A stretch of DNA of 64,000 nucleotides. Origin: Halalkaliarchaeum desulfuricum. GTDB taxonomy: Archaea > Halobacteriota > Halobacteria > Halobacteriales > Haloferacaceae. The position numbers and the translations under genes were made by a program. This document shows positions 25,319 through 46,911 of the stretch, one piece after another. Numbering within the stretch: the stretch's first letter is position 1; each line of letters starts with the position of its first letter. The stretch is from contig NZ_CP025066.1 of assembly GCF_002952775.1 (NCBI RefSeq), positions 434,001-498,000 on the forward strand. The letters run 5' to 3'. A model generated the notes under the pieces. That model worked only from the letters and a program-made list of their open reading frames with translations. It made no database searches and was not told where the DNA came from.

Positions 25319-26347
25319 TTATGCCGTCTCGACTTCACCGGCGTCCATGGCCGCCTCGACGGCTTCGACGGCCTCGACCATGTTCTCGAGCTTTTCGCGG
25401 GCGATCGGTCGCTTCACCGGCTTGAGCCCGCAGTCGGGTGTGATCGTCAACTGTTCGGGCGGGACGAGCGACACCGCCTCCTCGATCCGGGCGCGGATCT
25501 CCTCGATCGAGTCGACGTCCCTGTCCTGAGGATCGACGACCCCGAACCCAATGTCCACGTCGCCGTCCCACGCTGCGAGCACGTCTGCCGGGTCGTCGGC
25601 GTCGTCGCTCGCGAACTCCAGATCCACCTCGTCGACCGGAAACGAGAACATCTCCGGGGCGAGGTTGTCGTAGTTGCCCGAACAGACGTGAACGCCGAGC
25701 CGAACGTCGTCCGGCACCTCCTCGGCGATCCGCGAGAGGCTCTCGTGGGCAAGCTCAGAATGCGGTGAGATCCCCAGCCCCGGTTCGTCGATCTGGATCC
25801 ACTCGACGCCGGCGTCCACGAGCCGCGCGACTTCCGCGGCAACCAGTTCCGCCAGGTCCGCTGTGAGCTCTCCGACGTCGTCGTACGCCTGCGGCTGGCT
25901 GAACGACGCGAGCGTGAACGGCCCCGTGACGGTTACCTTGACCGGGCAGTCGGTGACCGACGCGGCGAACCGGTAGTCGTCGACCAGCCACGGCTCGCTC
26001 GAGGAGACCTCGTCGACGATCGTCGGCATCCCTGTGTTCCAGCCGGTTCCGTCCCCGCCGCCGTCCTGCTCCATGTTGTCGATGAACCGCGCGAAGTACT
26101 CGATCATCCCCTCCCGACGCACCTCCCCGTCGGTGACGACGTCCAGCCCCATCCGGTCGAAGATGTTCACGGCGGCCCGACTGGCGTCGTCGAGCGCCTC
26201 CTCGACGGTCCCCTCGGGGACCGATCCGTCGGCGTGGGCGTCCTCGATCTCGGGAAGCCAGGCCGGCCGAGGGTAACTGCCGACGACTGTCGTCAGAAGG
26301 AAACTCTCCGTTTCGTGATCGGGGGGACGGAATCGTTCACGTGTCAT
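25319..26347 (-). CDS. Core methionine synthase (MetE C-terminal-type)
   Basis: 342 residues, equal to the catalytic C-terminal half of cobalamin-independent MetE, without the N-terminal half. Zinc/homocysteine ligands are in place: H220 and C222 (GVHVCSGN), E244 (DLEFA) and C306 (PDCGLK). The start VGSYPRP is typical. Stand-alone core-MetE proteins of methanogens and some bacteria take the methyl from methyl-corrinoid instead of methyl-THF-glutamate. Being beside a methyl-corrinoid cluster, that is a likely donor here, though haloarchaea often carry tandem metE-like genes elsewhere. The wide AT-rich spacer upstream carries its promoter. Confidence 0.85.
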   Translation of the reverse strand: MTRERFRPPDHETESFLLTTVVGSYPRPAWLPEIEDAHADGSVPEGTVEEALDDASRAAVNIFDRMGLDVVTDGEVRREGMIEYFARFIDNMEQDGGGDGTGWNTGMPTIVDEVSSSEPWLVDDYRFAASVTDCPVKVTVTGPFTLASFSQPQAYDDVGELTADLAELVAAEVARLVDAGVEWIQIDEPGLGISPHSELAHESLSRIAEEVPDDVRLGVHVCSGNYDNLAPEMFSFPVDEVDLEFASDDADDPADVLAAWDGDVDIGFGVVDPQDRDVDSIEEIRARIEEAVSLVPPEQLTITPDCGLKPVKRPIAREKLENMVEAVEAVEAAMDAGEVETA

Positions 26348-26684
26348 TGCCCCATCCTACGGGGCGGCCGGAATAATCGTTTGGCTTACCGGCACGATCG
26401 GCAAAACTAACAAATAAATAATAATTCTGAATAGACATAACTTGCAAACAGGAATCACAACGAGGAAACAAGAAATATAAGCGGTACTCGCGGGAGGCGA
26501 TATAGTAACACAATCTCAAAATTTGAATGGATGTTTTCTCGGGTTGTAATATAATTGGGGGACTTCAACTCTAATAATTTCAATAATTCAGTTTTCCAAT
26601 CAAACCAGGAATGAGCAGATCTCGTATGGTATGGAGTAACTACAAGATATTATATACGATGTGGGTCCCGGGCGACGGGGTCGT
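26348..26684. other. AT-rich intergenic stretch
   Basis: 337 nt between the core-MetE start and the etfA stop, both on the minus strand. It is much richer in AT than the genes around. It should hold the MetE promoter near 26365-26400 and the etf operon terminator near 26640-26684. Short frames here (up to about 60 codons) have no recognisable product. No repeats or mobile-element ends found. Confidence 0.5.
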
Positions 26685-27647
26685 CTACTCTTCGAGCTCT
26701 TCGTTGAGCCGCGGGACGACCTCGTGGAGGTCGGCGACGACTGCGTAGTCGGCCTTCTGCATGATCGCGGCTTCCGGATCGGTGTTGATCGCGATCACGT
26801 TCTCGCTGCCCTTGGCACCGACCCAGTGCTGGACCGCACCGCTGATGCCGGCCGCGATGTACACCTCGGGGGCGATTTTCGCGCCGGTCTGTCCGATCTG
26901 GTCGTCGTGGGGCCGCCAGCCTTCGTTGACGGCCGCGCGGGTCGCGCCGACCGTCCCGGTGAGTTTGTCCGCGAGTGCCTCGAGCTGGGCGAACTCCTCC
27001 TCGCCGCCGACACCGCGACCGCCACCGATGACGACGCGAGCCTCCGACAGGGGGATGCCTTCCATGTCGGACTCCTCCTGACGAACGACGCGCACCGCGA
27101 CGTCCTCGTCGTCGAGTTCGGGCGCGAACGGCTCCACGGCAGGGTCACTCTCGGCCTCGGCGGGTTCGGCGGACACCTCGTGGGGAACGACAGTGAGCAG
27201 CTTGACGTCCGCCTCGAGTTCCGCGTGTTCGATGAGGCTGCCACCCCAGCGCTGGCGGGTGATCCCGTACACGTCACCGGCCTCGACCTCGGTACAGCTC
27301 GTGGCCATCGGCACGTCGAGCTTCGTCGCGAGATGTACGAGCACTTCGTGGCCGCGATCGCTACCCGGAGCGACGACCGTCCCTGCCGACAGCTCCTCGA
27401 CCAGTTGGGCGAGACTCTCCGCGTAGCCTTCCGGCGCGTAGGCGTCCAGCAGGTCGTGCTCGATCGCACACACCTGGTCGACACCGTACGCCGAGAGGTC
27501 GTCCGCGATGTCTTCTGCGCCGTCACCGAACGCGGCGGCGACGAGCTGTTCGTCCTCCTGTATCGCGACGTCCCGCGCGAACGTGACCGTCTCCAGGGAG
27601 ACGTCATCGACCGCGCCGGCGTCGTGTTCGACGAGCGTGAGTACCAT
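26685..27647 (-). CDS. etfA: Electron transfer flavoprotein, alpha subunit
   Basis: 320 residues. The C-terminal FAD domain is unmistakable: GGGRGVGGEEEF, GATRAAVNEGWRPHDDQIGQTG, then YIAAGISGAVQHWVG and NTDPEAAI. It forms a heterodimer with EtfB and takes electrons from the dimethylglycine dehydrogenase encoded just upstream, passing them to a membrane ETF:quinone oxidoreductase not in the window. The start follows the etfB stop with no spacer. Last gene of a three-gene operon. A Glu-rich insertion (about 165-200) is typical of haloarchaeal versions. Confidence 0.96.
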   Translation of the reverse strand: MVLTLVEHDAGAVDDVSLETVTFARDVAIQEDEQLVAAAFGDGAEDIADDLSAYGVDQVCAIEHDLLDAYAPEGYAESLAQLVEELSAGTVVAPGSDRGHEVLVHLATKLDVPMATSCTEVEAGDVYGITRQRWGGSLIEHAELEADVKLLTVVPHEVSAEPAEAESDPAVEPFAPELDDEDVAVRVVRQEESDMEGIPLSEARVVIGGGRGVGGEEEFAQLEALADKLTGTVGATRAAVNEGWRPHDDQIGQTGAKIAPEVYIAAGISGAVQHWVGAKGSENVIAINTDPEAAIMQKADYAVVADLHEVVPRLNEELEE

Positions 27648-28412
27648 TTACACCACCTCCAGGTCATCGAGCACTTCGACGACGTCCACGGCCGCCTCGG
27701 GAGTGTCCCCGAGCACTTCCGCGGGACTTTCGTCCCGTTCGGGCACCTCGAGTTCGACCTTCCGCACGTCGGTGACGTCGGCCGGCTCGGCGCCGCTGCG
27801 GTCGACGTCCGTCTGGCGGGCCTGCATTCGGCTCCGCATCGACGGGTACCGGGGAGTGTTTACACCCTCCTTCACGGTGACGACGGCGGGCATCGGCACC
27901 TCGAAGACGTTGTTGCCGCCGGGCACCTCCCGCTTTGCGATCACGGTGTCGCCGTCGACCTCGACGTCCTTGATCCCGGTGACGACGGGAACGTCGAGCT
28001 GGTTCGCCACGCGGATGCCGACCTGGTAGTTCTGGGCGTCGGCTGACTCGTTGCCGAAAAACATCAGGTCGTACTTCGGCTCCCCGTCCTCGTCGCTGAC
28101 GGCGTCGGCGATCTCGCGGGCTGTCGAGATCGGACCCCACTCGTGGTCGCCGGCCTCGAGCAGCTTCGCCTCGTCGACACCCATCGCGACGCCGGTGCGG
28201 AGCTGCTCGGTGGCGTCCTCCTCGCCGAGCGTCAGCACCGTCGACGTGCCGCCGTGCTCCTCGACGAGTTGGACGGCCGCCTCGACGGCACACTCCTCGT
28301 GCGGGCTGATGGTGTAGCCGATGCTGCTTGCATCGACGTCTTGCTTGTCGTCGGTCAGTACGATCTTTGCGCCCGTGTCGGGCACGCGCTTGATACAGGC
28401 TATAGTTTCCAT
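27648..28412 (-). CDS. etfB: Electron transfer flavoprotein, beta subunit
   Basis: 254 residues from the ATG ending at 28412 (METIACIKRVPDT, the standard EtfB start; a longer frame to 28463 is rejected). AMP-binding and recognition-loop features include NPxD-like SPHEECAVEAA and the GNESADAQNYQVG segment, and DRSG...VRKVELEVP near the C-terminus. Partner of EtfA, which begins at the next base. The 64-nt gap from the dehydrogenase gene supports one transcript. Confidence 0.95.
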   Translation of the reverse strand: METIACIKRVPDTGAKIVLTDDKQDVDASSIGYTISPHEECAVEAAVQLVEEHGGTSTVLTLGEEDATEQLRTGVAMGVDEAKLLEAGDHEWGPISTAREIADAVSDEDGEPKYDLMFFGNESADAQNYQVGIRVANQLDVPVVTGIKDVEVDGDTVIAKREVPGGNNVFEVPMPAVVTVKEGVNTPRYPSMRSRMQARQTDVDRSGAEPADVTDVRKVELEVPERDESPAEVLGDTPEAAVDVVEVLDDLEVV

Positions 28413-28476
28413 CGTTGTGTGTATGAGTGTTCGGTGGAACGCTAAATAAACCGGCGGTTTCAACGCCCCTACGGGC

Positions 28477-30996
28477 TTACTGGAGGATCCGCTCGTTGCT
28501 CGGATCGAACAGCGGCTTGCTGCCGACCCGCTCGACGGTCACCGGGTACTGGGTGCCCATGTACTCGACCTGCAGGTCCTGCCCTTCCTCGGCATATTCC
28601 TGCGGGATGTACGACATGAGGAGGTGCTTGCCGAGCGACGGCCCCGTGCCGGCGCTGGTCACGTACGAGCGGCGACCTTCCTCGTCCTCGAGGACGTTGC
28701 CGTCGAGGTCGAGGATCGGTTCGCCGCCGGTCATGAACCGCGGCTCGCCGCCCTCGGGGGCGTGGTCGTCGACGGTGAGGGTACACAGCGTGGCGACGTT
28801 CTCCTCGTCGATCGCCTCGGCGTACGCCTCCTTGCCGATGAAGTCCTCGTCTTTGACGCCGTGGAAGGTGAGACCGGCCTCGGCGGGGTTGTACTCCAGC
28901 TCGAGCTCGTGGCCGTACAGCCGGTAGCCCTTCTCCATGCGACCGGTGGTGCCGTAGACGCCCATCCCGACCGGCCGGATGTCGTAGTCCTGACCGGCCT
29001 CGTAGATGATGTCCCACAGGCGGCCGCCCTGCTCCATCGGGGCGTACAGCTCCCAGCCGAGTTCGCCGACGTAGGAGATGCGGAACGCCCAGACGTCGAC
29101 CTCACCGAGCGTGAGGTGCTGGGCGGTGTACGGCGGGAACGCCTCGTGGGAGACGTCCTCTTCGGCGACTTCCTGGACGACGTCCCGAGCGTTGGGGCCC
29201 CAGACGCCGAGGGTGGCTAAGGAGGACGTCTGATCGACGATGCGGACGTCCAGACTGCCGATGTTGTTCCGGAACCACCGCTTGTCGGGACCGGTTTCGC
29301 CGCCGCCGGTCATCACTCGATAATGATCGTCGGCCAGGCGGGCCATCGTCAGGTCGGAGATGAACCCACCGTTCTCAGCGAGCACCGGTGTGTACACCGA
29401 CTCGCCGACGTCGATGGCCGTGTCCGCGACGAAGATCTTCTGGGTGAACTCCTCGACGTCGTCGCCGACCAGGTCGATGAGGCCAAAGCCCATGTCGCCG
29501 ATCATGCCGACGTTGTCGCGCATGTGGAGATGCTCGCCCAGGATGATCTCCGACCACCAGCGGCTGTCCCACTCGTTGGGGCGCTGGAGGCCTTCGAGTT
29601 CGTCCTCGTACTTCTCGAGGAGGTCCTCGTTGGACTCGAACCACTGCGGGCGCTCCCAGCCGGCCGACTCGAAGAACTCCGCACCGAGATCCTCCTGCCG
29701 GTCGTAGAAGGCGCTTTGCCGCAGCGGACGGGACGACTGCCACTGCTCGCGCGGGTGGACGATGTCGTAGATCTTCTGGAACCCTTCGTGGGCGCGCTCC
29801 TTGACGAACTTCTTGGAGGTGCCGTAGCCCTCGAAGCGGTTGACGTCGGACTGGTGGAGGTCGACCTCGGGGTAGCCCTGCGTCATCCACTGGGCGGTGT
29901 ACTTCGCGAACGCCGGTGCCTCCTTGATCCAGATCGCCGAACACGACCAGAGGCCGTCGACGTCGTCCATCGGGCCCACGAGCGGCATGCCGTCCGGCGT
30001 GACCGAAAGCAGGCCGTCGATCGCGTGACGGATCTCGGCGTCCTCGAGGATCTCGGGCATGATTTCGAGGGCGTGCTCCATCGACGGATCGAACGCGTCC
30101 TGGGTCAGCGGCGGCTGGGTCGGCGACAGCGGCGCCTCCTCGTTGGACGGCACGTCTTCGACGTCCCACAGGATCGGCCGGTGTTCGTAGGAACCGACCT
30201 CCATGTCGTTGCCGCTCGGACGCTCGTACATCTGGGTGTCGACGTCCCGAACGATCGGGTACCCGATTTCCTCGCCTGTCTCCTCGAGGACGTCGATCGG
30301 GCCGACGCTGATCATCTGGTGGACTGCCGGTGTGAGCGGGATCTCGGTGCCGGCCATCTCGGCGAGCTTCGGGCTCCACAGGCCGGCGGCGATGACGACC
30401 TCGTCGGCCTTCACCGTGCCGCGGTCGGTCTCGACCGCCGAGATCGCGCCGTTCTCGACGTGGAGATCGGTTACCTCGGTGTTGGCGAACGACTGCAGTA
30501 CGCCCCACTCCTCGGCCTCCTTGCGCTTGATCTCGCCGAACCGGAGCGGGTCACAGACGCCGGCCCGGGGCTCCCAGAATCCGCCCTCGATAATGTCCTC
30601 GTTGATGTACGGAACCATCTCCTTGACCTCCTCGGTCGAGATGATCTCCGCTTCCTGCCCCCAGGACTTCGAGGACGCGATCTGACGTCGGAACTCCTCC
30701 ATTCGCTCTTCGGTCCGGGCGACCTCGATGCCACCGCTTTCTGTGTAGAGGTCTTCCTCCTTGTACTGCTCCATCGCCTCCTGTGTCAACAAGGCCATCT
30801 CCTTGTTGTGTTCGATGGGCATGATGAAGTTGGAGGCGTGGCCGGTCGATCCACCCGGGTCCGGGAACGGCCCCTTGTCGATCAGAACGATGTCCTCGCG
30901 CCCCTGATCCGCGAGGTGATACGCGAGACTCGTTCCGACGATCCCTGCGCCGATAATGACGGTGCCTGCCTTCGACGGCAGCTCTTTACTGCTCAT
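28477..30996 (-). CDS. Dimethylglycine/sarcosine dehydrogenase-like FAD-GcvT fusion
   Basis: 839 residues, the size of dimethylglycine and sarcosine dehydrogenases. Residues 1-400 are a DAO-type FAD oxidoreductase with G16-x-G18-xx-G21 and GSTGHAS, where H53 aligns with the histidine that binds FAD covalently in DMGDH. About 410-480 is the FAO_M linker, and 480-839 a GcvT/YgfZ-type folate domain (VYGTTGRMEKGYRLYGHELE, then the C-terminal barrel). It oxidatively demethylates an N-methylglycine and traps the carbon as 5,10-methylene-THF. It heads the operon with etfB and etfA, its electron acceptor. Dimethylglycine is favoured by the betaine context; sarcosine remains possible. Confidence 0.9.
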   Translation of the reverse strand: MSSKELPSKAGTVIIGAGIVGTSLAYHLADQGREDIVLIDKGPFPDPGGSTGHASNFIMPIEHNKEMALLTQEAMEQYKEEDLYTESGGIEVARTEERMEEFRRQIASSKSWGQEAEIISTEEVKEMVPYINEDIIEGGFWEPRAGVCDPLRFGEIKRKEAEEWGVLQSFANTEVTDLHVENGAISAVETDRGTVKADEVVIAAGLWSPKLAEMAGTEIPLTPAVHQMISVGPIDVLEETGEEIGYPIVRDVDTQMYERPSGNDMEVGSYEHRPILWDVEDVPSNEEAPLSPTQPPLTQDAFDPSMEHALEIMPEILEDAEIRHAIDGLLSVTPDGMPLVGPMDDVDGLWSCSAIWIKEAPAFAKYTAQWMTQGYPEVDLHQSDVNRFEGYGTSKKFVKERAHEGFQKIYDIVHPREQWQSSRPLRQSAFYDRQEDLGAEFFESAGWERPQWFESNEDLLEKYEDELEGLQRPNEWDSRWWSEIILGEHLHMRDNVGMIGDMGFGLIDLVGDDVEEFTQKIFVADTAIDVGESVYTPVLAENGGFISDLTMARLADDHYRVMTGGGETGPDKRWFRNNIGSLDVRIVDQTSSLATLGVWGPNARDVVQEVAEEDVSHEAFPPYTAQHLTLGEVDVWAFRISYVGELGWELYAPMEQGGRLWDIIYEAGQDYDIRPVGMGVYGTTGRMEKGYRLYGHELELEYNPAEAGLTFHGVKDEDFIGKEAYAEAIDEENVATLCTLTVDDHAPEGGEPRFMTGGEPILDLDGNVLEDEEGRRSYVTSAGTGPSLGKHLLMSYIPQEYAEEGQDLQVEYMGTQYPVTVERVGSKPLFDPSNERILQ

Positions 30997-31287: not shown

Positions 31288-31680
31288 TCATTCCTCGTCG
31301 ACCACAACGTACTCCCCGTAGTCCTCGACAGTGCCGACCGTCGGCGCACCGAGCATGAGCCACACCGCCTCACCCTCCTCGGCGTCGTTCAACAACTGTC
31401 GCGGCGTCTCCGAGGGGACGCGAACGACACCCCACTTCGGCACGTCGACGAGATCCCCGCCGATCCGCGCCCTGCCAGGACCCGACAACAACACGAACAC
31501 CTCCTCCTGACGCTCGTGTCTGTGATACCCGGTGACGTCTCCGGGAGACAGTCGGATGACGTTCACCCGCATCTCCGTCGCACCGAGCGCCTCCGTCAGT
31601 TTTCTGTGGTTTAGTCCGGACTCGGGAAACTGGTCGGGTTCGATCTCGTCGGGATCAACGACGGTGTACTCGTCTGACAT
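31288..31680 (-). CDS. Single-domain cupin protein
   Basis: 130 residues forming one cupin barrel. Motif 1 is GYHRHERQEEVFVLLSG (H53, H55 and E59 as metal ligands) and motif 2 is weaker (VRVPSETPRQLLN, without the usual His). A one-metal or metal-free binding protein is therefore possible. It is divergent from the RACo operon and about 290 nt upstream of the dehydrogenase operon on the same strand. Function in the methyl pathway is unknown; it could be a sensor or small-molecule-binding protein. Confidence 0.8.
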   Translation of the reverse strand: MSDEYTVVDPDEIEPDQFPESGLNHRKLTEALGATEMRVNVIRLSPGDVTGYHRHERQEEVFVLLSGPGRARIGGDLVDVPKWGVVRVPSETPRQLLNDAEEGEAVWLMLGAPTVGTVEDYGEYVVVDEE

Positions 31681-31816
31681 CGTCCGTGAGATGCAATCCG
31701 CCGGAGATATAGTTTATGTCGGTGATACTTTGCTTTCGGACGTGGTTCGTGGCGGGTTAGCAAATCACGGCGACACCCTTTTGACGGGGCATTCCTGTTC
31801 TCCAACAGAAACCGAC

Positions 31817-33769
31817 ATGAGTGACGAACCGACTGTGCGATTTTCTCCCTGGGAGACGAGCGTCGACGTCGAGGAGGGAACGACCGTTCTCGAGGCCGCC
31901 GACCGGGCAGGTCTGTCGATCGAAAGTCTGTGTGGCGGCGAGGGTCTCTGTGGCACCTGCAAAGTCGTCGTCGACGACGGCGCGGACTGTCTGTCCGCCG
32001 TCACGGACGCAGACGAACTACTGCTCTCCGAAGAGCAACTCGAATCGGGCTACCGACTCTCCTGTCGTTCGGACGTCGAATGTGGCCCGGTCGACGTCAC
32101 GGTTCCGAACGTCTCGCAAAACACCGGCGGCGTCGTCCTCACCGAAGGCAGAGAACTGGAGGTCGATCTCGATCCCGTGGTCACGAACTACCACCTCGAG
32201 CTGTCGCCGCCGTCGCTTTCGGACAACACGGCGGACCTCGAACGTGTGGGGGAAGCGCTCAAAGAAAACTACGAAGTATCGATCGAAGAGATCGATCGGG
32301 TCGTCCATCAGGAGCTGCCGAACCTGATGCGCGGTGCGGAGGTCGAGGACAAACTCCACGCGACGGTGACGGTGTACGACGACGAGGAGATCATCGACGT
32401 CACCCCGGGATGGGACGAGACGATGTACGGGTTGGCTATCGACATCGGGACGACCACGATCGCCGTCTATCTCGTCGATCTCCGGACCGCCGACCGCGTC
32501 GCGGTGAGTTCGCGGATGAACCCACAGAGCACGTTCGGCGGCGACATCATGAGCCGGATGCGACACACTCGACGAAGCGAGAACGGTCGCGAAGAGCTCC
32601 AGGACGCGATCGTCGACGGTGTAAACGAACTGGTCGACGAGGTGGTCGAGGAAGCCGAAATCGACCCCGATAACGTTTACGAGGCGGTGTTCGTCGGGAA
32701 CACCGCGATGCATCACCTCTTTCTGGGGATCGATCCCCACTACGTCGCCGGCTCCCCGTACGTGGCGGCCAACCACGCCCCCGTCACCGTCAAGGCCCGG
32801 GAGCTGGACATCGACATCAACCCGGCCGGCTACCTCTACTGGCTCCCGATAAGCGGCGGGTGGGTCGGGCCGGACAAGGTGTCGGTGCTTCTGGTGTCCG
32901 AGCACCACAAACGCGAGGAACTCACCGTCTGTGTCGACATCGGAACCAACGGCGAGATTTCGGTCGGGAACAGCGAACGGATGTGGTCGACCTCCGCGCC
33001 GGCCGGTCCCGCACTCGAGGGCGCGGAGATCACACACGGTGTGCGCGCCCGGGACGGCGCCGTGGAGTTCGTCACGATCGACGACGAGACGCTGGAACCC
33101 GACCTCGAGGTCATCGGCGACGAGCCGCCGATCGGTATCTGTGGGTCCGGGATCATCGACGTCCTCGCGGAGCTGTTCGAGGCGGGCGTGATCGACCAGC
33201 GGGGACAGTTCCAGGAGGAACTGCTGGATCACCCGCGGCTCAGGCGCAACGCCCACGATGTCCTCGAGTACGTGCTCGTTTTCGCAGACGAGTCCGGGAT
33301 CGACGGTGACGTCGTCGTCACCCAGAACGACCTCCGGGAGATCCAGCAGGCGAAGGCAGCGATCCAGGCCGGTACCCGCGTGTTGATGGACGAACTCGAC
33401 ATCGACACCGTCGACAGGGTCGTTCTCGCGGGGGCGTTCGGCAACTACATCGATCCGGAGTCCGCGATGACGGTCGGACTGTATCCCGACGTCGACTTCG
33501 ACGCGGTCGAATCCCTGGGTAACGCCGCCGGGATCGGGGCACAGCTCGCGCTGTTGAACCGCGACAAGCGAGCGGAGGCCATGGAGATCGTCGACCACGT
33601 CGAGTACTTCGAGATCGCCGGGACCGACGTGTTCCGGAACAACTTCATGGAGTCGATGTACGTCCCCCACCAGCGGATCGAACTGTACCCCAGTGTCCGG
33701 GAACGGATCGGTGAGTTCGACGAAGGGCGGGGTGTCGTCGTGCGCGAGGGACGCAGCGCCGAACGATGA
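31817..33769 (+). CDS. RACo-type corrinoid protein reductive activator (DUF4445)
   Basis: 650 residues from the ATG at 31817 (an upstream-extended frame at 31532 crosses the cupin gene and is rejected). N-terminal plant-type [2Fe-2S] ferredoxin with C39-x5-C45-x2-C48 and C83; linker (about 95-200); then an ASKHA-fold actin-like ATPase with LAIDIGTTTIAVYL and a second VDIGTNGEI motif plus LAGAFGNYIDPE. This is the layout of RACo/AcsV proteins that use ATP to re-reduce inactive cob(II)alamin to cob(I)alamin in corrinoid methyltransferase systems. It overlaps the DUF1638 gene by 4 nt. The likely target is the corrinoid protein at 44361. Confidence 0.93.
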   Translation: MSDEPTVRFSPWETSVDVEEGTTVLEAADRAGLSIESLCGGEGLCGTCKVVVDDGADCLSAVTDADELLLSEEQLESGYRLSCRSDVECGPVDVTVPNVSQNTGGVVLTEGRELEVDLDPVVTNYHLELSPPSLSDNTADLERVGEALKENYEVSIEEIDRVVHQELPNLMRGAEVEDKLHATVTVYDDEEIIDVTPGWDETMYGLAIDIGTTTIAVYLVDLRTADRVAVSSRMNPQSTFGGDIMSRMRHTRRSENGREELQDAIVDGVNELVDEVVEEAEIDPDNVYEAVFVGNTAMHHLFLGIDPHYVAGSPYVAANHAPVTVKARELDIDINPAGYLYWLPISGGWVGPDKVSVLLVSEHHKREELTVCVDIGTNGEISVGNSERMWSTSAPAGPALEGAEITHGVRARDGAVEFVTIDDETLEPDLEVIGDEPPIGICGSGIIDVLAELFEAGVIDQRGQFQEELLDHPRLRRNAHDVLEYVLVFADESGIDGDVVVTQNDLREIQQAKAAIQAGTRVLMDELDIDTVDRVVLAGAFGNYIDPESAMTVGLYPDVDFDAVESLGNAAGIGAQLALLNRDKRAEAMEIVDHVEYFEIAGTDVFRNNFMESMYVPHQRIELYPSVRERIGEFDEGRGVVVREGRSAER

Positions 33770-38784: not shown

Positions 38785-38895
38785 TTCTATCACTCCAGAA
38801 GGTAACCGGTTTTAGTTTCTCCCGTCCCGTCGTCCCCGGGCTGGCGATCGTGTGTGGATGTCGAGTCATACGTCTCAACCTGCGACTCCAGAGAC

Positions 38896-39548: not shown

Positions 39549-41258
39549 CTAGAAGAGGCCGGAGATGGTGCCGTCTGCGTCGATGTCCATGTCGGCGGCG
39601 GCGGGACGACCCGGCAGGCCGGGTAGGTCCATCACGTCGCCAGTTAGCACGACCAGGAAGCCGGCGCCAGCAGACGGGTACACTTCACGCACGTCAAGCG
39701 TCCAGTCTTTGGGGACGCCCTTCTTCGAGGGGTCGTCGCTGAACGAGTGGAACGTCTTCGACATCACGATCGGCATGTCGTCCAGACCCAGCTCTTCCAT
39801 CCGCTCGATGTCGTCTTCGGCCCCGTCGACGTAGTTGACGCCGTCGGCGCCGTAGATCTCCGTCGCCACCGTCTCGACCTTCGATTTGATCGACTCTTCG
39901 GTGTCGTACAGGAACTCGAAGTCCGCCTCGCTCTCCTCGACGGCACCGGTGATCTTCTCGACCAGTTCCACGCCGCCTTCCCCGCCCTCGGAGAAGACGT
40001 TCGAGACGCCCGCCGGGATCCCCTGGGATTCACAGTGGTCGACGACCGCTTCGATCTCCTCGTCGGTGTCCTGCGGGAACCGGTTGATGGAGACGACGAC
40101 CGGCACGCCGAACTGCTGGAGGTTCGCGGCGTGCTTGTCGAGGTTCTCCAGGCCGGCCTCGACGGCCTCGACGTCCGGCTCTTCGAGTTCGTCCATGTCG
40201 GCGGGCCACATGTCCTTGCCGTGGTACTTGAGCGCACGCACGGACGACACCAGCACGATCGCCGACGGCTCGACGTCGCCGAAGCGGCTCACCACGTTGA
40301 GGAACTTCTCGGCGCCCAGGTCCGAGCCGAAGCCCGCCTCGGTGAGCACCCAGTCGGCCATCCCGAAGGCGGCCTGGTCGGCGATCAGCGAGTTGGTGCC
40401 GTGAGCGATGTTCGCGAACGGCCCCGCGTGCACCAGCGCCGGCGTTCCCTCCAGCGTCTGCACCACGTTCGGCTTCAAAGCGTCGCGAAGCAGGATCGTG
40501 GCGGCGCCGGTTGCCTCGATGTCGTCGACGGTGACCGGCTCGCCTTCCTCGTCGTAGGCGACGATGATCCGGCCGACGCGTTCCTTGAGGTCTTCAAGCG
40601 AGTCGGCAAGCGCCAGCACGGCCATCAGTTCGGAGGCGGCCGTAAGCAGGAAGCTCGCCTCGCGAGTCTGACCGCCCGACTCGCCGCCCAGCCCGATCAC
40701 CATGTTGCGCAGCGCGCGGTCGTTCATGTCGATGGCGCGCTTCCAAGAGATGTTGTTCGGGTCGATGTTGAGCTCGTTGCCCTTCGAGATGTGGGCGTCC
40801 AGCATCGCGGAGATGAGATTGTGCGCCGCAGTCAGCGCGTGAATGTCGCCCGTGAAGTGGAGGTTGATGTCCTCCATGGGCAGCACCTGCGAGTAGCCGC
40901 CGCCGGCGGCGCCGCCCTTGATACCGAAGACCGGTCCCAGCGAGGGCTCGCGGATGGCGATCATCGCCTGCCGGCCCGTGTGGTTGAACGCCTGGCCCAG
41001 GCCGACGGTGGTAACCGTCTTGCCCTCGCCCATCGGCGTCGGCGTCATTCCCGTGACCAAAACGAGGTTCGAATCCTCCGACCGCTGGTCTTTGAGACGC
41101 TCGACCGCATCCATCGAGAGTTTGGCCTTGTAGTCGCCGTACAGCTCCAGGTCGTCCTCGGTGAGACCGAACGGCTCGACCACGTCAGTGATGTGTTCCA
41201 GATCGGCGTCCTGTGCGATTTCGTAGTCCGTCGGGAATCCGCTATCGTCTTCAGACAT
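39549..41258 (-). CDS. fhs: Formate-tetrahydrofolate ligase
   Basis: 569 residues from MSEDDSGF (ATG ending 41258). P-loop PTPMGEGKTVTT near 70, REPSLGPVFGIKGGAAGGG, and GDIHALTAAHNL are family signatures, and the C-terminal GDVMDLPGLP is complete. It makes 10-formyl-THF from formate with ATP; in the oxidising direction it yields ATP by substrate-level phosphorylation. It lies between formate dehydrogenase and the methyltransferase, which fits a methyl-to-CO2 route. The gene is on the minus strand, 268 nt after the end of the MttB gene, so it probably has its own promoter. Confidence 0.95.
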   Translation of the reverse strand: MSEDDSGFPTDYEIAQDADLEHITDVVEPFGLTEDDLELYGDYKAKLSMDAVERLKDQRSEDSNLVLVTGMTPTPMGEGKTVTTVGLGQAFNHTGRQAMIAIREPSLGPVFGIKGGAAGGGYSQVLPMEDINLHFTGDIHALTAAHNLISAMLDAHISKGNELNIDPNNISWKRAIDMNDRALRNMVIGLGGESGGQTREASFLLTAASELMAVLALADSLEDLKERVGRIIVAYDEEGEPVTVDDIEATGAATILLRDALKPNVVQTLEGTPALVHAGPFANIAHGTNSLIADQAAFGMADWVLTEAGFGSDLGAEKFLNVVSRFGDVEPSAIVLVSSVRALKYHGKDMWPADMDELEEPDVEAVEAGLENLDKHAANLQQFGVPVVVSINRFPQDTDEEIEAVVDHCESQGIPAGVSNVFSEGGEGGVELVEKITGAVEESEADFEFLYDTEESIKSKVETVATEIYGADGVNYVDGAEDDIERMEELGLDDMPIVMSKTFHSFSDDPSKKGVPKDWTLDVREVYPSAGAGFLVVLTGDVMDLPGLPGRPAAADMDIDADGTISGLF

Positions 41259-41526
41259 AGCTAGGAGAGACAACAGTGTCCACCATTAAGAAAGGTTCTG
41301 TTTAGTCCTTGGCTCGTTTAAGTACACCCGAGGAATAATTCATCTGATTGGCGAATAATCGTGGAAAACGTTGACAAACAGGGGGATTCGCCTGAAATCA
41401 GTAGACGGGGGTCGAACGGAACGGAGGGGGATTGAACGCAGCGAGCGACGAATGAGAATCGGGAGGGGAGCAGGTCACGCCCCGGCGGCGTGGCGGCGTC
41501 GGTGCAACCAGCGGATCGATCTCGGT

Positions 41527-42984
41527 TCAGTAGGCGGTTTCGGTGGCTTCCGCGACGTACGCCTCGAGGTCCTCCTCGATCTCCTCGTCGATCGGCGGTC
41601 GTTCGTACTCCTCGAGCCGGGTTTGCACGCGATCGTGCCCCATCTCGAACCCGGTCTTTTCGCCGTCCTCCTCCCAGTCACCGTGGGAGCGCTTGTCGAA
41701 CACCTCGGTGCGGAAATGCTCGTCGCGAGAGTGCGTCAGCGTGTGTCGCTTGCTGAGGTAGTGGCCCGCGGGTTCCACTTCCGAGATGAGGTCGAACGCG
41801 AAGCTCTCCTTGTCGATCTGGAACCCCTCGTTGATCCGTTCGAGGTTCCGGATCAGCTCGCAGTCGAGGACGAACTTCTCCGGGGAGATCGCCGAGTACG
41901 ACTCCAGGATGCCACACGAGTGGAGCACGAAGTCGATCCCCGAAAACTCCGCGGCGGTGAGCGTCATCATCGATTCGAAGCCGGCCTGGTAGTCGACCGA
42001 CTTGGAGTCGGAGAGGCCGCCGCCGCCCCGTGACGGGACGCCGTAGTACCGCCCCATCTGCCCGGCAAACGAGATGAACAGCGCCGACTCGGGGCTACCG
42101 ATCGACAGCGAGCCGTACCGGACGTCGATGTTCGAAGAGGGGACGCCGTACACGACGGGCGTGCCCGGATTGACGAGCTGTGCCAGGGTGATCCCCGTGA
42201 GGTTCTCCGCGTTCGCCTGTGCCATCGCGCCCGAAAGCGTCGCCGGCCCCGACGCGCCGGCCATCGTGAACGAGGAGACGACCGCGGGCTGGCCGTTCTT
42301 CGCCATCGTGAGCAGCCCGCCCAGCATCTTCTTGTCGAGGCTCCGGGGTGGGACCGTGTTGACCAGCGCTGCCGCGTACGGCTTCGACAGGTCCGGATCC
42401 TCGTGTGCAATGCCGACCATCTCCAGGCCGGCCTCGGCCCGGTCTTCGCCGTACGCCGACACCATCGGCACCTTGTCGGTGAGCGTCAGCGACCGCTTTA
42501 CCATCTCCAGGTGTTTGACCTCCTGGTCGACGTCGTTCGGCTCACAGACGTTGTAGCCGGCGGAGTTGAGCACGTCCTCGGTCTGGACGAGCTTCATCAT
42601 CGTCTCGTAGTCCTCGATCGTCGACTTCCGACGACCGTCCTCGAACGTCCGGACGTTCGGGGCGCCGTAGCCCGGCGCACGCAGCGGCTCCCCGGAGTCG
42701 CCGCCGATCGTGACGTTGTTATCCGGATTGCGCGCGTGGAGCGTGAACGAGGAGGGGGCCGTTTCGACGGCGTCCTCGATCACGTCGCGGGGGATGGTCA
42801 CGACGTTGTCCTCGTGAACCTCGGCGCCGTGTTCCTCGAGGACCTCGATCGCCTCCTCGTGGTTCAGCTGGATCCCGATCTCCTCGATGATGCGGATCGC
42901 TGCCTCGTGGAGCGCTTCCTCACCTTCCTCCGTGAGTCTGTCGAAGGATGGCACCGGCTGTGTTTCCGTATCGTATTCTTTCAC
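41527..42984 (-). CDS. MttB-superfamily methyltransferase without pyrrolysine (MtgB-like)
   Basis: 485 residues, the normal length for the trimethylamine methyltransferase family. The reading frame contains no in-frame amber codon and ends in TGA, so it is a non-pyrrolysine member. Signatures include GRRKSTIEDYETMM, VNTVPPRSLDKKMLGGLL, TLAQLVNPGTPVVYG and PSRGGGGLSDSKSVDYQAG. Non-Pyl members characterised in bacteria demethylate quaternary amines, including glycine betaine (MtgB), proline betaine and carnitine, onto a corrinoid protein. With dimethylglycine dehydrogenase nearby, glycine betaine is the best guess here. On the minus strand with folD 84 nt upstream. Confidence 0.93.
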   Translation of the reverse strand: MKEYDTETQPVPSFDRLTEEGEEALHEAAIRIIEEIGIQLNHEEAIEVLEEHGAEVHEDNVVTIPRDVIEDAVETAPSSFTLHARNPDNNVTIGGDSGEPLRAPGYGAPNVRTFEDGRRKSTIEDYETMMKLVQTEDVLNSAGYNVCEPNDVDQEVKHLEMVKRSLTLTDKVPMVSAYGEDRAEAGLEMVGIAHEDPDLSKPYAAALVNTVPPRSLDKKMLGGLLTMAKNGQPAVVSSFTMAGASGPATLSGAMAQANAENLTGITLAQLVNPGTPVVYGVPSSNIDVRYGSLSIGSPESALFISFAGQMGRYYGVPSRGGGGLSDSKSVDYQAGFESMMTLTAAEFSGIDFVLHSCGILESYSAISPEKFVLDCELIRNLERINEGFQIDKESFAFDLISEVEPAGHYLSKRHTLTHSRDEHFRTEVFDKRSHGDWEEDGEKTGFEMGHDRVQTRLEEYERPPIDEEIEEDLEAYVAEATETAY

Positions 42985-43009
42985 GTCTGGTTGTGATTAC
43001 TTGTGACTC

Positions 43010-43020: not shown

Positions 43021-43068
43021 TTTCCAGGTGCGGCCCGTTGCCGCAGAAAATTCACTGCAGGGTCCAGC

Positions 43069-43962
43069 TCAGGGAAGTTCGATGTCGACGTCGTGCTGGA
43101 GGCTCGCGGCTTTGACCGTGTTGTACAGGAGCATCGTGATCGTCATGGGTCCGACGCCGCCTGGCACGGGCGTGATCGCGGAGGCTTTCTCCTTGGCGGA
43201 GTCGAATTCGACGTCGCCAACCAGTTCGTAGCCCTTCTCGTTGTCTGCGTCCACGCGGTTCACTCCGACGTCGATGACGACCGTGTCCTCGGTGAGCATC
43301 GACCCGTCGACGAACTCCGGGACACCCACCGCGGCGATGACGATGTCGGCGTTTCTCGTCTTCTCGGCCGTGTTTTTCGTCCGCGAGTGACAGACGGTGA
43401 CCGTGGCGTTGCCCAGTTTCGTCTTCTGGATCAGCAGGTTCGCCATCGGCTTGCCCACGATGTTCGACCGACCCACGATCACCGCGTCTTTCCCTTCGGT
43501 GTCGACGCCGGCCGATTCGAGGAGTTTCTGGACACCGAACGGCGTACAGGGTTTGAATCGGGCGTTACCCGCCACCAGTTTGCCGACGTTTTCCGGGTGG
43601 AAGCCGTCGACGTCCTTCATCGGGTCGATGTACTCCAGGACCGCACGCTCGTCGACGTGGTCCGGTACGGGCATCTGGACGAGGATGCCGTGTACCGCGG
43701 GATCCTCGTTGAGCTCGTCGATCTTCTCGAACAGGACGTCCGCGGGCGCGTCCGGATCGATCTCGTGGTGGAAGCTCTCGATGCCGATCTGCTCGCAGGC
43801 CTTCTGCTTCATCGAGACGTACGTCTCGCTTGCGGCGTCGTCGCTCATCAACACCGTCGCCAGCCCCGGCGTGACGCCCTCCTCCTCGAGGGTCCCGATG
43901 CTCGATTCCAGCTCCGACTTGATGCGATCGCCGACCTCGTTTCCGTCGATTATCTCTGTCAT
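43069..43962 (-). CDS. folD: Methylene-THF dehydrogenase/methenyl-THF cyclohydrolase
   Basis: 297 residues. Catalytic Y48-x3-K52 (YVSMKQKA), DVDGFHPENVGKL, the NADP-binding VIVGRSNIVGKPMANLL and the PVPGGVGPMTI signature are all intact. It converts 5,10-methylene-THF to 5,10-methenyl-THF and on to 10-formyl-THF with NAD(P). It links MetF and the dimethylglycine dehydrogenase products to Fhs. It is the first gene of the minus-strand folD-mttB pair and diverges from the corrinoid-protein gene across a 398-nt regulatory spacer. Confidence 0.95.
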   Translation of the reverse strand: MTEIIDGNEVGDRIKSELESSIGTLEEEGVTPGLATVLMSDDAASETYVSMKQKACEQIGIESFHHEIDPDAPADVLFEKIDELNEDPAVHGILVQMPVPDHVDERAVLEYIDPMKDVDGFHPENVGKLVAGNARFKPCTPFGVQKLLESAGVDTEGKDAVIVGRSNIVGKPMANLLIQKTKLGNATVTVCHSRTKNTAEKTRNADIVIAAVGVPEFVDGSMLTEDTVVIDVGVNRVDADNEKGYELVGDVEFDSAKEKASAITPVPGGVGPMTITMLLYNTVKAASLQHDVDIELP

Positions 43963-44320: not shown

Positions 44321-44328
44321 CTTTATAG
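44321..44328 (+). promoter_or_regulatory. TATA box of the corrinoid-protein gene
   Basis: CTTTATAG preceded by GAAAAACAAG (BRE-like) lies 33-40 nt before the ATG at 44361, implying a short 5' leader of several nucleotides. Confidence 0.6.
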
Positions 44329-44360
44329 ACAATCATAATCTTTCTCCGGGTACTGGATAC

Positions 44361-45071
44361 ATGACCGACACCAATGGGGGAGAAAACGATGCCGAGGAAG
44401 AAGTCGAGGACGAACTGTTACTCGAGATCCAGCAGTCGATCATTGATCTCGAGGAGGATCGGACCGAAGAGTTGACCAAACAGGCGATCGACGAGGGGTA
44501 CGATCCGCTCGACATCCTGCAGAAGGGCCTGACGAAAGGCGTCAAGACCGTCGGCGACAAGTTCGGACGTGGGGAAGTCTTCCTGCCCGAGCTGGCGATG
44601 TCGGCAGACTGCATGCGTGCCGGCGTCCAGCACGTCGACCCACTGCTTGCGGATCTGGAACTCGACGACGAGGACACCGGCGGGAAGTTCCTCATCGGCA
44701 CCGTCGACGAGGACATCCACAACATCGGGAAGAACATCCTCATCACGATGCTGAAGGCCAACGGCTTCGAGGTCGTCGACCTCGGCGTCGAGATCCCCAA
44801 CGAAGAGTTCGTCGAAGCCGTCAAAGAACACGACCCGGACATTCTCGGCATGTCCGCACTGATGACGATGACGATGGACCACCAGGAAGAGGTCATCGAA
44901 CTGCTCGAGGAGGAGGGCCTCCGCGACGACCTGAAGATCATGGTCGGCGGCGCCCCCACCTCAAAGGAGTGGTGCGAGGAGATCGGTGCCGACGGCTACG
45001 GCGACAACGCCGACGCCGCCGTCGAAGTCGCGAAGGAATTGGTCGAAGAACACCGGGCCGCGAAGGCGTAA
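44361..45071 (+). CDS. Methyl-accepting corrinoid protein (MtgC/MttC-like)
   Basis: 236 residues. The N-terminal helical cap (about 20-100: ILQKGLTKGVKTVGDKFGRGE, LPELAMSADCMRAG) is followed by a B12-binding Rossmann domain with D118-x-H120-xx-G123 (DIHNIGKN), whose His is the lower cobalt ligand, then GMSALMTMTM and VGGAPTS. It carries the methyl group from the MttB-type enzyme to the MtrH-like enzyme. It is about 20 residues longer than bacterial homologues because of an acidic N-terminus, as expected in halophiles. Followed by the BCCT transporter gene. Confidence 0.95.
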   Translation: MTDTNGGENDAEEEVEDELLLEIQQSIIDLEEDRTEELTKQAIDEGYDPLDILQKGLTKGVKTVGDKFGRGEVFLPELAMSADCMRAGVQHVDPLLADLELDDEDTGGKFLIGTVDEDIHNIGKNILITMLKANGFEVVDLGVEIPNEEFVEAVKEHDPDILGMSALMTMTMDHQEEVIELLEEEGLRDDLKIMVGGAPTSKEWCEEIGADGYGDNADAAVEVAKELVEEHRAAKA

Positions 45072-45095
45072 CCGACGGCAGATTTATAATAGATC
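45071..45095 (+). repeat. 25-bp direct repeat, copy 1
   Basis: ACCGACGGCAG, then ATTTATAATAGATC. It begins at the last base of the corrinoid gene stop. Copy 2 at 45207 is identical at 23 of 25 positions. Each contains TTTATAA, a TATA-like core, so both may be promoters or one a duplicated promoter for the BCCT gene. Confidence 0.6.
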
Positions 45096-45124
45096 CGCGA
45101 ATTGACTCTAGATGACCCTCGCTG

Positions 45125-45289
45125 ATGGTGGGGTCGTTTGACGAGATCGATCATGTCACGGACAGTCGAACCGTATCGGCAGAAGAAGTCGAAAAATACC
45201 GTACGGACCGACGGCAGTTTTATAACAGATCAATGAGTCGTTTGGAAACGACCCTCACATGGGTTCACTGGAACGTAAATAACGATTAA
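45125..45289 (+). CDS. Possible 54-residue protein before the BCCT gene
   Basis: An open frame from ATG 45125 to TAA 45287-45289, ending two bases before the BCCT start. Deduced protein is hydrophilic, with an EEVEKYRTDRRQFYNRS helix and a WVHWNV end, no membrane span. Third-position GC is near half, well below the surrounding genes, and the frame passes through a 25-bp repeat that may be a promoter. I do not recognise the product. It may be a small protein coupled to the transporter or only a leader. Confidence 0.25.
   Translation: MVGSFDEIDHVTDSRTVSAEEVEKYRTDRRQFYNRSMSRLETTLTWVHWNVNND
45207..45231 (+). repeat. 25-bp direct repeat, copy 2
   Basis: ACCGACGGCAG, then TTTTATAACAGATC, 136 bp after copy 1 and about 61-85 nt before the BCCT ATG. 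Both copies are followed at 19-20 nt by GACCCTC, so the duplicated segment is somewhat longer than the core. The TTTATAA core would put transcription start near 45250. Confidence 0.6.
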
Positions 45290-45291
45290 AT

Positions 45292-46911
45292 ATGAGTCAA
45301 CAACAATCGCAAGGCTGGATGGAGAAGTTCACGAGCGAACTGGACTACGTCGTATTCGGTATCGGCGTGGTCGTGGCAGCACTGGCGGTCGCGGCGTTCG
45401 TCCTGCGCGAGGAGGCGGCGTCAGCGGCGATGTGGGACGTAAACGACTTCCTGTGGACGAACCTGGGCTGGGCGTACCTGCTCATCATGTTCGTCCTGGT
45501 GCTGATGGTCTTCTTCCTGATACTCGGGCCATGGGGGAACATCAGGCTCGGGAAGGAAGACGAAGAACCAGAATTCACGTTCCTGTCGTACTTCGTGATG
45601 CTGTACTCGGCAGCGATCGCCGCAGGGATCGTGTTCTGGGGCCCCACGGAGGGCGTCGTCTTCTTCGGTGACCCCTTCGAGCAGGGAATCGGGTACCTCG
45701 GCTTCCCAGGAGAGGGTGATGCAGCAGTCGGTGCGATGCAGTACACCTTCTTCCACTGGGGCATCTCGGCGTGGTCGGCCTACGTCGTGATGGCAATCCC
45801 GATCGCCTACCTCGCGTACCGGTACGACGCGCCGCTGCGCATTTCGACGGTGATCGCCCCGTGGGTCGGGCTGGACAACCTCGACAGCGTCTGGGCGAAG
45901 ATCATCGACATCGTCGCAGTGTTCGCCACCATCGGCGGCGTCGCGACGACCCTTGGACTCGTCGGCTCCCAATTCCTCGTGGGGTTGGAGTACGCCTACG
46001 GGATCGAGCTGGGCGATATGGGGACGGTCATCACCATCACCGGATTGACCATCGCGTTCACGATCTCGGTGGCGGCCGGGATCCAGAAGGGGATCCGCCG
46101 GATATCCTACTTCAACATGGCGCTGTTCGCGCTGTTGATGGTCGTCATCTTCTTCGTCGGCCCGACCAGGTTCATCATGACCACCGGGACCGAAGCGCTC
46201 GGCGGCTACATCAACGACTTCATCAACATGAGCCTCTACACCGAGGCATCCATGGTGGATCCGGTTGGCTTCGTCGGCGGCTGGACCGTCTTCTACTGGG
46301 CATGGTGGTTCTCGTGGGCGCCGTTCGTCGGGCTGTTCATCGCCCGCATTTCCCGCGGTCGGACGGTCAGGCAGGTCGCCTTTACGGGCGTCTTCGCCGC
46401 GACCGGCGTGACCATCCCGTGGTTCGCGACGATGGGCGGCACGTCGATCTACATGGAGATGAACAACATCGCCCCGATCCTCGACGTGTATGCGGACTTC
46501 GGCTTCGACGAAGCCGTGGTCGGCTTCCCGATGTTCGAGGCCCTGCCGCTCGGCGGTGTGTTCATGTTCCTGTTCCTGGTGTTGATCACGACGTTCTTCA
46601 TCACCTCGGCCGACTCGTCGACGCTGGCCCTGGGGATGCTCACCACCGGCGGCGCTGAGAGCCCCTCGACGGTCAACCGCGTCATCTGGGGAGCGCTCAT
46701 CGGACTGCTGGCCTCGATCTTGATGGTCGTCGGCGGCGTCGACGCGCTGCAGGCCGCAGCGATCATCACCGGCGGACCGTTCGGCCTCATCCTGCTTGTC
46801 GCCGTGGTGGCGATGGCCGTCCTGTTCGGGAAGCGGCGTCCGATCTTCATGCAGGAAAGTGACGACTCGCTACCCGGCACGTCGGTGGACTTCGTCGAAT
46901 CCGACGACTGA
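45292..46911 (+). CDS. BCCT-family transporter, divergent glycine motif
   Basis: 539 residues with about 12 membrane spans. The aromatic substrate box FYWAWWFSWAPFVGLFIAR and following RISRGRTVR are classic for betaine/choline/carnitine transporters. In the span where Na+-coupled members carry GMGIG, this protein has SAAIAAGI (106-113). It may therefore differ in coupling, for instance exchange of substrate and product as in CaiT; this is inference. It lies just downstream of the corrinoid-protein gene and most likely imports the methylated amine used by the cluster. No long osmosensing tail: the C-terminus is short and acidic. Confidence 0.93.
   Translation: MSQQQSQGWMEKFTSELDYVVFGIGVVVAALAVAAFVLREEAASAAMWDVNDFLWTNLGWAYLLIMFVLVLMVFFLILGPWGNIRLGKEDEEPEFTFLSYFVMLYSAAIAAGIVFWGPTEGVVFFGDPFEQGIGYLGFPGEGDAAVGAMQYTFFHWGISAWSAYVVMAIPIAYLAYRYDAPLRISTVIAPWVGLDNLDSVWAKIIDIVAVFATIGGVATTLGLVGSQFLVGLEYAYGIELGDMGTVITITGLTIAFTISVAAGIQKGIRRISYFNMALFALLMVVIFFVGPTRFIMTTGTEALGGYINDFINMSLYTEASMVDPVGFVGGWTVFYWAWWFSWAPFVGLFIARISRGRTVRQVAFTGVFAATGVTIPWFATMGGTSIYMEMNNIAPILDVYADFGFDEAVVGFPMFEALPLGGVFMFLFLVLITTFFITSADSSTLALGMLTTGGAESPSTVNRVIWGALIGLLASILMVVGGVDALQAAAIITGGPFGLILLVAVVAMAVLFGKRRPIFMQESDDSLPGTSVDFVESDD

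Follow-up and report, generated by a model that had tools for sequence, protein, structure and literature searches.

Glycine betaine ranks among the major osmolytes of brines, where the dominant haloarchaea are usually seen as users of amino acids, sugars and glycerol. The corrinoid-dependent demethylation of betaine is known from bacteria and methanogens (PMC8604678, PMC12478193; these and all other papers cited are drawn on in the parts of their text that were available). For haloarchaea, dimethylglycine oxidase-like genes led in 2011 to the suggestion that betaine, dimethylglycine or sarcosine may be used (PMC3102087). No description of corrinoid betaine demethylation in Halobacteria was found in the open-licence literature searched, and the available text of PMC10873845, PMC8211752, PMC7416419, PMC9765009, PMC6176080 and PMC11332174 holds nothing on such a haloarchaeal route; mttB is abundant in the salt-flat metagenomes of PMC9765009, where it is placed under methanogenesis. 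The stretch of DNA analysed here (the window) comprises 64,000 nucleotides of Halalkaliarchaeum desulfuricum, bases 434001-498000 of a single 3.31-Mb contig, and carries an island in which an MttB-type methyltransferase, a corrinoid protein and their partners stand with a folate one-carbon (C1) gene set. The island probably serves glycine betaine catabolism, in which a methyl group is removed in an MtgABC-like manner and oxidised to CO2 via folate, and the remainder is used via dimethylglycine and glycine. The corrinoid betaine route is known elsewhere; the new aspect, as far as found, is its apparent occurrence in Halobacteria.

Genes were re-called from codon composition and acidity, and families were assigned with Pfam and NCBIfam. 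All the gene families named in a first-pass annotation of this DNA are present within 25,319-46,911, at or near the places where it had put them, and its claim that corrinoid-type betaine demethylation genes are joined to a folate C1 set in a haloarchaeon is confirmed at the level of families in one island. The main components are the following.

26685-27647, minus strand: EtfA (ETF_alpha, E 4.1e-32)
27648-28463, minus strand: EtfB (ETF, E 1.8e-30)
28477-30996, minus strand: fusion of a dimethylglycine oxidase/dehydrogenase (DMGDH)-type flavoprotein with a GcvT folate domain (DAO, E 2.7e-55; GCV_T, E 1.6e-69; FAO_M; GCV_T_C)
31532-33769, plus strand: RACo-type reductive activator of the corrinoid protein (RACo_C_ter, E 1.2e-93; Fer2)
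34761-35591, plus strand: MetF-type methylene-tetrahydrofolate reductase (MTHFR, E 8.7e-15)
35699-36619, plus strand: MtrH/MtgA-type methylcorrinoid:tetrahydrofolate methyltransferase (MtrH, E 1.4e-76)
36667-38793, minus strand: cytoplasmic-type formate dehydrogenase FdhA (TIGR01591, 755.9 bits, above the cut-off of 666.25)
39549-41273, minus strand: formate-tetrahydrofolate ligase Fhs (FTHFS, E 1.6e-248; exceeds the NF010030 cut-off)
41527-42984, minus strand: non-pyrrolysine MttB, candidate glycine betaine:corrinoid methyltransferase (MTTB, E 7.7e-152)
43069-43962, minus strand: FolD (both FolD domains; exceeds the NF010764 cut-off)
44361-45071, plus strand: MtgC-like corrinoid protein (B12-binding, PF02310, E 3.7e-30; B12-binding_2, PF02607, E 3.3e-21)
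45292-46911, plus strand: BCCT betaine/choline/carnitine transporter (BCCT, E 2.3e-147)

The MttB frame is open, with zero in-frame stops or amber codons, and the protein is therefore not of the pyrrolysine type; against the pyrrolysine-MttB model TIGR02369 it scores 339.6 bits, below the cut-off of 525. The word 'methylamine' in the title of the first-pass annotation is unfit for such a protein. The top solved relatives are 9yce and 2qne (E 6.4e-126; five solved sequences matched), of which 9yce carries the name 'glycine betaine methyltransferase' and 2qne is MtgB according to PMC9842639; identity between the window MttB and MtgB is 43% over 471 residues. In a maximum-likelihood tree of 29 rows (the G380 row partial), built without L020, L021 and L025, for which an open translation was not found, and without duplicates of tested genomes, but with seven of the 21 loci of a named-genome scan, the 22 haloarchaeal rows form their own clade (100/100). 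This clade is joined to the bacterial sequences, MtgB and 4yyc, at the weak support of 87/73, in a reference set from which carnitine, proline betaine and other characterised members are absent.

An MtrH-family methyltransferase and a reductive activator both lie in the same locus as MttB and the corrinoid protein. RACo-type activators accompany MtgABC systems. The 2Fe-2S motif of the window RACo (CX5CX2C at residue 134) is intact, as is the corrinoid motif DIHNIG (DxHxxG form) at residue 118 of the corrinoid protein, which exceeds the TIGR02370 cut-off. The corrinoid protein scores 220.2 (cut-off 310) and 206.9 (cut-off 370) against the NCBIfam MtgC models. For the MtrH-like protein the MtgA model (273.9 bits, cut-off 550) gives a better match than the methanogen mtrH model does (226.1 bits, cut-off 271.4), and both scores are under the cut-off. 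For this reason the set is called MtgABC-like rather than strict MtgABC or an equivalog. Two gene starts need comment. For RACo, 31532 probably lies about 100 codons too far upstream, with the true start near 31.8 kb, because the called open reading frames of homologues and paralogues encode 644-675 residues; for the MtrH-like gene, 35699 is the likeliest start, the mechanical open reading frame from 35246 being over-long.

Glycine betaine appears to be the likeliest quaternary amine substrate, because MtgB is the nearest solved relative of MttB and BCCT transporters are present in the island. It is favoured also because its demethylation yields dimethylglycine, and the island holds a dimethylglycine oxidase/dehydrogenase-type flavoprotein adjoining EtfAB. 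The top solved relatives of this DMGDH-type fusion are dimethylglycine oxidase 1pj5 (E 1.4e-142, 480 bits) and dimethylglycine dehydrogenase (E 3e-98, 333 bits), and it is under the cut-off in every NCBIfam match among the best 25 of 27. The first-pass suggestion that betaine or a related quaternary amine is a carbon and energy source is thus upheld for the substrate by the nearness of MttB to MtgB, the dimethylglycine-type protein and BCCT, while such use is inferred only. MetF, FolD, Fhs and formate dehydrogenase are all four in the window, so that the gene set of an oxidative folate C1 route is complete; FdhA has an open frame with a cysteine in its CxxxCH stretch.

From the observed gene families, synteny, co-occurrence and NrfD-family association, a route can be proposed whose substrate, direction and energetics are predicted. 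A BCCT transporter would import betaine, and the non-pyrrolysine MttB would transfer a methyl group from betaine to the MtgC-like protein, at its Co(I), with dimethylglycine as the other product. Whenever the cobalt slips to Co(II), RACo would re-reduce it. The MtrH/MtgA-like protein would then pass the methyl group from the corrinoid to tetrahydrofolate (THF), and MetF, FolD and Fhs, run oxidatively, would yield formate with ATP gained at Fhs, the formate being converted to CO2 by FdhA. The DMGDH-GcvT fusion would remove a further methyl group, or perhaps both that are left, as methylene-THF, with electrons passing to the EtfAB encoded beside it. Glycine and methylene-THF could be combined to serine via SHMT (no SHMT search was made), and the threonine/serine ammonia-lyase found in the island offers a plausible exit from serine to pyruvate. 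The electrons would probably be delivered to anaerobic respiration, with which the gene set is associated.

This association comes from 391 haloarchaeal genomes, each representing a different species, searched with thresholds of E<=1e-40 for MttB, 1e-15 for MtrH-like, 1e-20 for RACo-like and 1e-15 for MtgC-like proteins. MttB occurs in 14 of the 391, and MtgC-, MtrH- and RACo-like proteins occur in five each, which are the identical five (G000, the genome of the window, with G318, G001, G007 and G371) and all fall within the 14; the co-occurrence across Halobacteria that the first-pass annotation had proposed to check was thus found for MtgC, MtrH and RACo. The five span three genera and three families; they are related and do not represent five independent events. 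In a family search of the 14 MttB genomes, the corrinoid cap domain PF02607 was found in the same five only (the control set was positive in 9 of 14, including E. coli and Methanosarcina), and MetF was found in all 14. The second genome of the genus, G318, has the same gene set with full-length matches of 85-96% identity, lowest for DUF1638 and highest for FolD. The set of G371 is less compact: one contig carries MttB, MtgC, FolD, DUF1638 and RACo in a span of ~25 kb, and another has MtrH and MetF next to each other. NrfD-family matches are present in all five corrinoid genomes (7, 6, 6, 6 and 2) versus one of the nine other MttB genomes, and the corrinoid set is probably coupled to anaerobic respiration. 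Of the 14 MttB genomes, 12 have haem-copper oxidase and only G001 and G007 lack it; G000, with three matches, may therefore be a facultative anaerobe.

The nine other MttB genomes (loci L008-L016) are without the corrinoid cap-domain protein, MtrH and RACo, and seven of them are 98-100% complete and two (G346, G376) 91-92%. Halocatena marina and Halobaculum gomorrense are examples of species with an MttB in which the corrinoid cap-domain protein was not found. MttB in Halobacteria is therefore not always tied to a corrinoid protein. Six of the nine (G017, G063, G098, G277, G306, G376) have an MttB island with MetF, a DmdA-like GcvT protein, Fhs, a FolC-FolP-type fusion and DMGDH-type genes, and four or five of these six islands also hold FolD, EtfB, BCCT, UspA, ammonia-lyase and FdhA. 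The FolC-FolP domains were seen by Pfam in G277 and G371, the DmdA-like protein was examined in G063 and G277, and the DMGDH-type matches of G063 are 35-37% identical to the window protein. In the MttB tree, a single branch within the haloarchaeal clade, with 99/98 support and present in 100% of 200 bootstrap trees, has all nine corrinoid-free proteins on one side; the MttB of Halomicrococcus, whose corrinoid content was not examined, falls among them.

Two alignment columns separated the groups in a first comparison of nine rows from four corrinoid genomes with nine clade rows (eight tested genomes and Halomicrococcus), which omitted the second G000 MttB and the G001 row. At the column of window A108, alanine is found in 9/9 corrinoid rows and proline in 9/9 clade rows; at the column of G264, glycine is found in 9/9 corrinoid rows and alanine in 8/9 clade rows, Halomicrococcus having glycine. 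Across the full tree rows, site 108 is alanine in 10 of 11 corrinoid-genome rows, the exception being the second G000 MttB (L019) with proline, and proline in all eight corrinoid-free rows that cover the site, as well as in 4yyc and in Halomicrococcus and QS_1_68_17, which were not examined for corrinoid content. Site 264 is glycine in 11/11 corrinoid-genome rows and alanine in 8/9 corrinoid-free rows (glycine in G380). Window A108, which follows the conserved glycine of the corrin-contacting loop, aligns with Thr111 of M. barkeri MttB, as read by eye beside a one-residue gap that makes the register uncertain by one. In the MttB-MttC complex, the Gly110-Thr111 peptide N-H bonds the corrin ring (PMC9842639), a hydrogen bond that proline at this site cannot give because it has no backbone N-H. 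The observation was made after the fact, and proline was rejected as a clean marker of corrinoid-free MttB, since it also occurs in the second G000 MttB, 4yyc and QS_1_68_17; it is retained as weak support for a corrinoid-free mode of action.

It is conceivable, if rather doubtful, that this haloarchaeal MttB clade works without a corrinoid protein, methylating THF directly or via a partner such as the DmdA-like folate protein near MetF, and that the window form is the anaerobic branch of the same island. The weight given to this possibility is lowered because the site-108 proline is not unique to the clade. The division of MttBs with and without corrinoid partners by one branch of a gene tree makes it testable whether MttB can act without B12.

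The DmdA-like GcvT-family protein (L142:5132-6517 in G063 and homologues) occurs in 87 of 351 haloarchaeal genomes. Its top NCBIfam model is PRK12486, with 243.4 and 249 bits for two members (cut-off 410), and its top solved relative is 3tfh (E 2.9e-42), which is named 'GcvT-like aminomethyltransferase' and which we take to be DmdA. The idea that this protein simply replaces the corrinoid set in aerobic genomes was rejected, because it is also found in G000 (two copies), G318 (two), G001 and G007; no MetF or DMGDH match was found in four 20-kb stretches around the gene in G000 (two), G001 and G318. At six DmdA-like loci taken from genomes in which no MttB was matched, MetF lies close by in 6/6, a DMGDH-type gene (34-36%) in 5/6 and BCCT in 2/6. 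The protein is a candidate folate-dependent, B12-free demethylase of betaine or dimethylsulfoniopropionate. The second, divergent MttB of G000 (L019/L044, G000:C1 ~1.198 Mb) is 43% identical to the window MttB, and no match to the window MtgC, MtrH or RACo was found within its 20-kb stretch; a single-domain B12-binding protein and MeaB, probably mutase-related, lie ~2 kb away.

An alternative to glycine betaine catabolism is that the same corrinoid-folate machinery acts on another quaternary amine (choline, proline betaine or a carnitine-type compound) or on several. Members of the MttB superfamily each demethylate a specific quaternary amine (PMC8604678), which together with an MtgB identity of just 43% leaves room for another substrate. 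Four MttB copies are present in each of G318 and G371, some with DMGDH-like oxidoreductase or BCCT matches near (loci L031, L032, L038 and L039), and this number suggests more quaternary-amine substrates. However, a dimethylglycine oxidase/dehydrogenase-type protein with EtfAB and BCCT fits dimethylglycine as the product, and MtgB is the top solved relative, so that another substrate is unlikely for the window island.

A second alternative concerns the direction of the folate genes and arises from the published reading of a related cluster. In G007, a cluster of ~27 kb holds FdhA, cupin, MttB, Fhs, FdhA and, further on, RACo, MtrH, MetF, FolD, EtfAB, DMGDH, MtgC, BCCT and a FolC-FolP-type fusion. 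The C1 tags given for Halodesulfurarchaeum formicicum in 2017 (PMC5437934) are FdhA 1736, Fhs 1739, FdhA 1740, MetF 1746, FolD 1747, EtfAB 1748-49 and 'GcvT' 1750. The order of HTSR_1736-1750 fits G007, where MttB, RACo and MtrH occupy the positions left between these tags and MtgC and BCCT adjoin the tagged stretch; G001 and G007 appear to be Halodesulfurarchaeum, and the published tags appear to be this cluster. The folate C1 set that the first-pass annotation calls bacterial-style is present in the window, and a cluster of the same appearance had already been published for a haloarchaeon. The available text of PMC5437934 reads the cluster as formate-linked C1 metabolism (supply or disposal), has no occurrence of the words betaine and corrinoid, and pairs EtfAB with FdhA for electron bifurcation. 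Judged from gene order, EtfAB is tied to DMGDH, not to FdhA: the order DMGDH-EtfB-EtfA is conserved in the window, G277, G306, G376 and G017, and EtfAB adjoins DMGDH in G007. Tag 1750 is a glycine-cleavage protein in the H. formicicum paper, while its likely homologue here (L115:5235-7769 in G007) is a DMGDH-GcvT-type fusion adjoining EtfAB and 65% identical to the window protein; the 'glycine cleavage' annotation may therefore need revision. The Halodesulfurarchaeum C1 cluster thus gains a different reading that is testable in a cultured organism. A strain name, Halodesulfurarchaeum sp. HSR-GB, is in print (PMC13308652). Its 'GB' may stand for glycine betaine, and growth on betaine may be known to the isolators. 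A similarly named strain of Halalkaliarchaeum presumably exists.

If the folate genes ran reductively, formate would supply methyl-THF for biosynthesis and methionine, and MttB, MtgC and core MetE would serve mainly methionine synthesis, as in marine bacteria. The published formate-linked reading of the Halodesulfurarchaeum cluster (PMC5437934) agrees with this, as do a core-MetE gene beside EtfA in the window and the marine MtgC that serves both methionine synthesis and betaine demethylation (PMC12478193). Yet DMGDH, EtfAB, BCCT, FdhA and ammonia-lyase are catabolic in type and are kept with the set, and the only other locus, among those searched, where core MetE adjoins the cluster is that of G318, which belongs to the same genus; core MetE was for this reason rejected as a fixed part of the pathway, and C1 supply as the main role is quite improbable. 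A pyrrolysine-type trimethylamine methyltransferase system, to which only the Pfam name of the MTTB family ('trimethylamine methyltransferase') points, is refuted by the open MttB frame and the sub-cut-off TIGR02369 score and can hardly be credited.

Several observations weigh against glycine betaine catabolism as the role of the island. The MtgA-like and MtgC-like proteins are under the NCBIfam MtgA and MtgC cut-offs, and nine genomes have a related MttB yet no corrinoid cap-domain protein. The DMGDH-type protein is nearer to the solved oxidase than to the ETF-linked dehydrogenase (480 vs 333 bits), and the ETF:quinone oxidoreductase iron-sulfur family is above cut-off in none of the five corrinoid genomes, where only sub-cut-off matches were found. 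In Halodesulfurarchaeum, the cytoplasmic FdhAs rose on formate plus thiosulfate, and formate-linked C1 metabolism was the role assigned to the cluster (PMC5437934). Betaine was without growth benefit for H. walsbyi, and H. utahensis did not grow on betaine (PMC3102087; the island content of both was not examined). The first-pass statement that halophiles usually regard betaine as a solute is only partly right: its use was proposed in 2011, although these two tested species did not profit from it.

The island exceeds the limits first drawn for it. To the left it takes in a BAT-type regulator, and to the right it extends over the genes for UspA, a threonine/serine ammonia-lyase and a second BCCT transporter; DUF1638 and core MetE were likewise outside the earlier list.

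24533-25198, minus strand: BAT/HTH_10 regulator, candidate island regulator (Pfam HTH_10, E 7e-16)
25319-26347, minus strand: core-MetE-like methyltransferase, methionine synthase domain only (Meth_synt_2, E 2.6e-51)
33766-34581, plus strand: DUF1638 protein (Pfam, E 4.8e-13)
47020-47457, minus strand: UspA-family protein (Usp, E 1.7e-37)
47511-48935, plus strand: threonine/serine ammonia-lyase, candidate serine-to-pyruvate enzyme (TIGR01127, 439.5 bits, above the cut-off of 378.75)
52027-53865, plus strand: second BCCT transporter (BCCT, E 2.1e-181)

The BAT, UspA, ammonia-lyase and BCCT families were found again in related islands when the MttB neighbourhoods of other Halobacteria were compared and clustered. 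The BAT regulator is 90% identical and in the same position in G318, and its family recurs in the loci of G063, G277, G306, G376 and G380; the ammonia-lyase family recurs in those of G017, G063, G098, G306, G371, G376 and G380. The core-MetE-like protein is under the cut-off of all 12 NCBIfam models matched. DUF1638 genes lie in or near corrinoid clusters in the window and at L116:7203-8033, L118:13651-14628, L121:14657-15487 and L123:3254-4075, and the protein is possibly an accessory of corrinoid methyl transfer. G000 also has a second corrinoid cluster (L116, G000:C1:2560000-2579999; L117, G000:C1:2483000-2502999), which contains an IclR regulator, DUF1638, a corrinoid protein, a pterin-binding methyltransferase (top NCBIfam model PRK07535, 243.8 vs a cut-off of 259), an MFS transporter, a URO-D-family methyltransferase and a second RACo. 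A further pair of corrinoid protein and URO-D is found in G000 at ~2.49 Mb, and portions of the second cluster recur in L121 (G318) and L122/L123 (G007). The second cluster possibly serves the demethylation of methoxylated or other methyl compounds.

If the complete corrinoid-folate route is true, some haloarchaea would compete directly, as anaerobes, with the methanogens and bacteria that use betaine, and the turnover of betaine in salt lakes could be linked to the sulfur cycle. Among haloarchaea, dimethylglycine oxidase-like genes near BCCT transporters have likewise led to a proposal of betaine, dimethylglycine or sarcosine use, although the words corrinoid and trimethylamine do not occur in the available text of that paper (PMC3102087). 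Methanolobus vulcani also offers an archaeal, corrinoid-dependent betaine demethylation (PMC6855144), in which the methyl group goes to coenzyme M, whereas in the window it would go to folate and CO2. The MtgBCD system of marine Roseobacter resembles the window set in its split cobalamin methyltransferase, its folate C1 oxidation and its respiring hosts; its MtgC, however, is phylogenetically distinct from that of anaerobes and required for methionine synthesis (PMC12478193), while the window set accompanies NrfD-family reductases. MtgABC of Desulfitobacterium hafniense (MtgB, 2qne/9yce) likewise consists of a non-pyrrolysine MttB, an MtgC-like corrinoid protein and an MtrH-family MtgA-like protein. 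The window set differs from it in being haloarchaeal, in falling under the MtgA and MtgC cut-offs, and in being joined to DMGDH-EtfAB, Fhs, FolD, FdhA and ammonia-lyase in one island.

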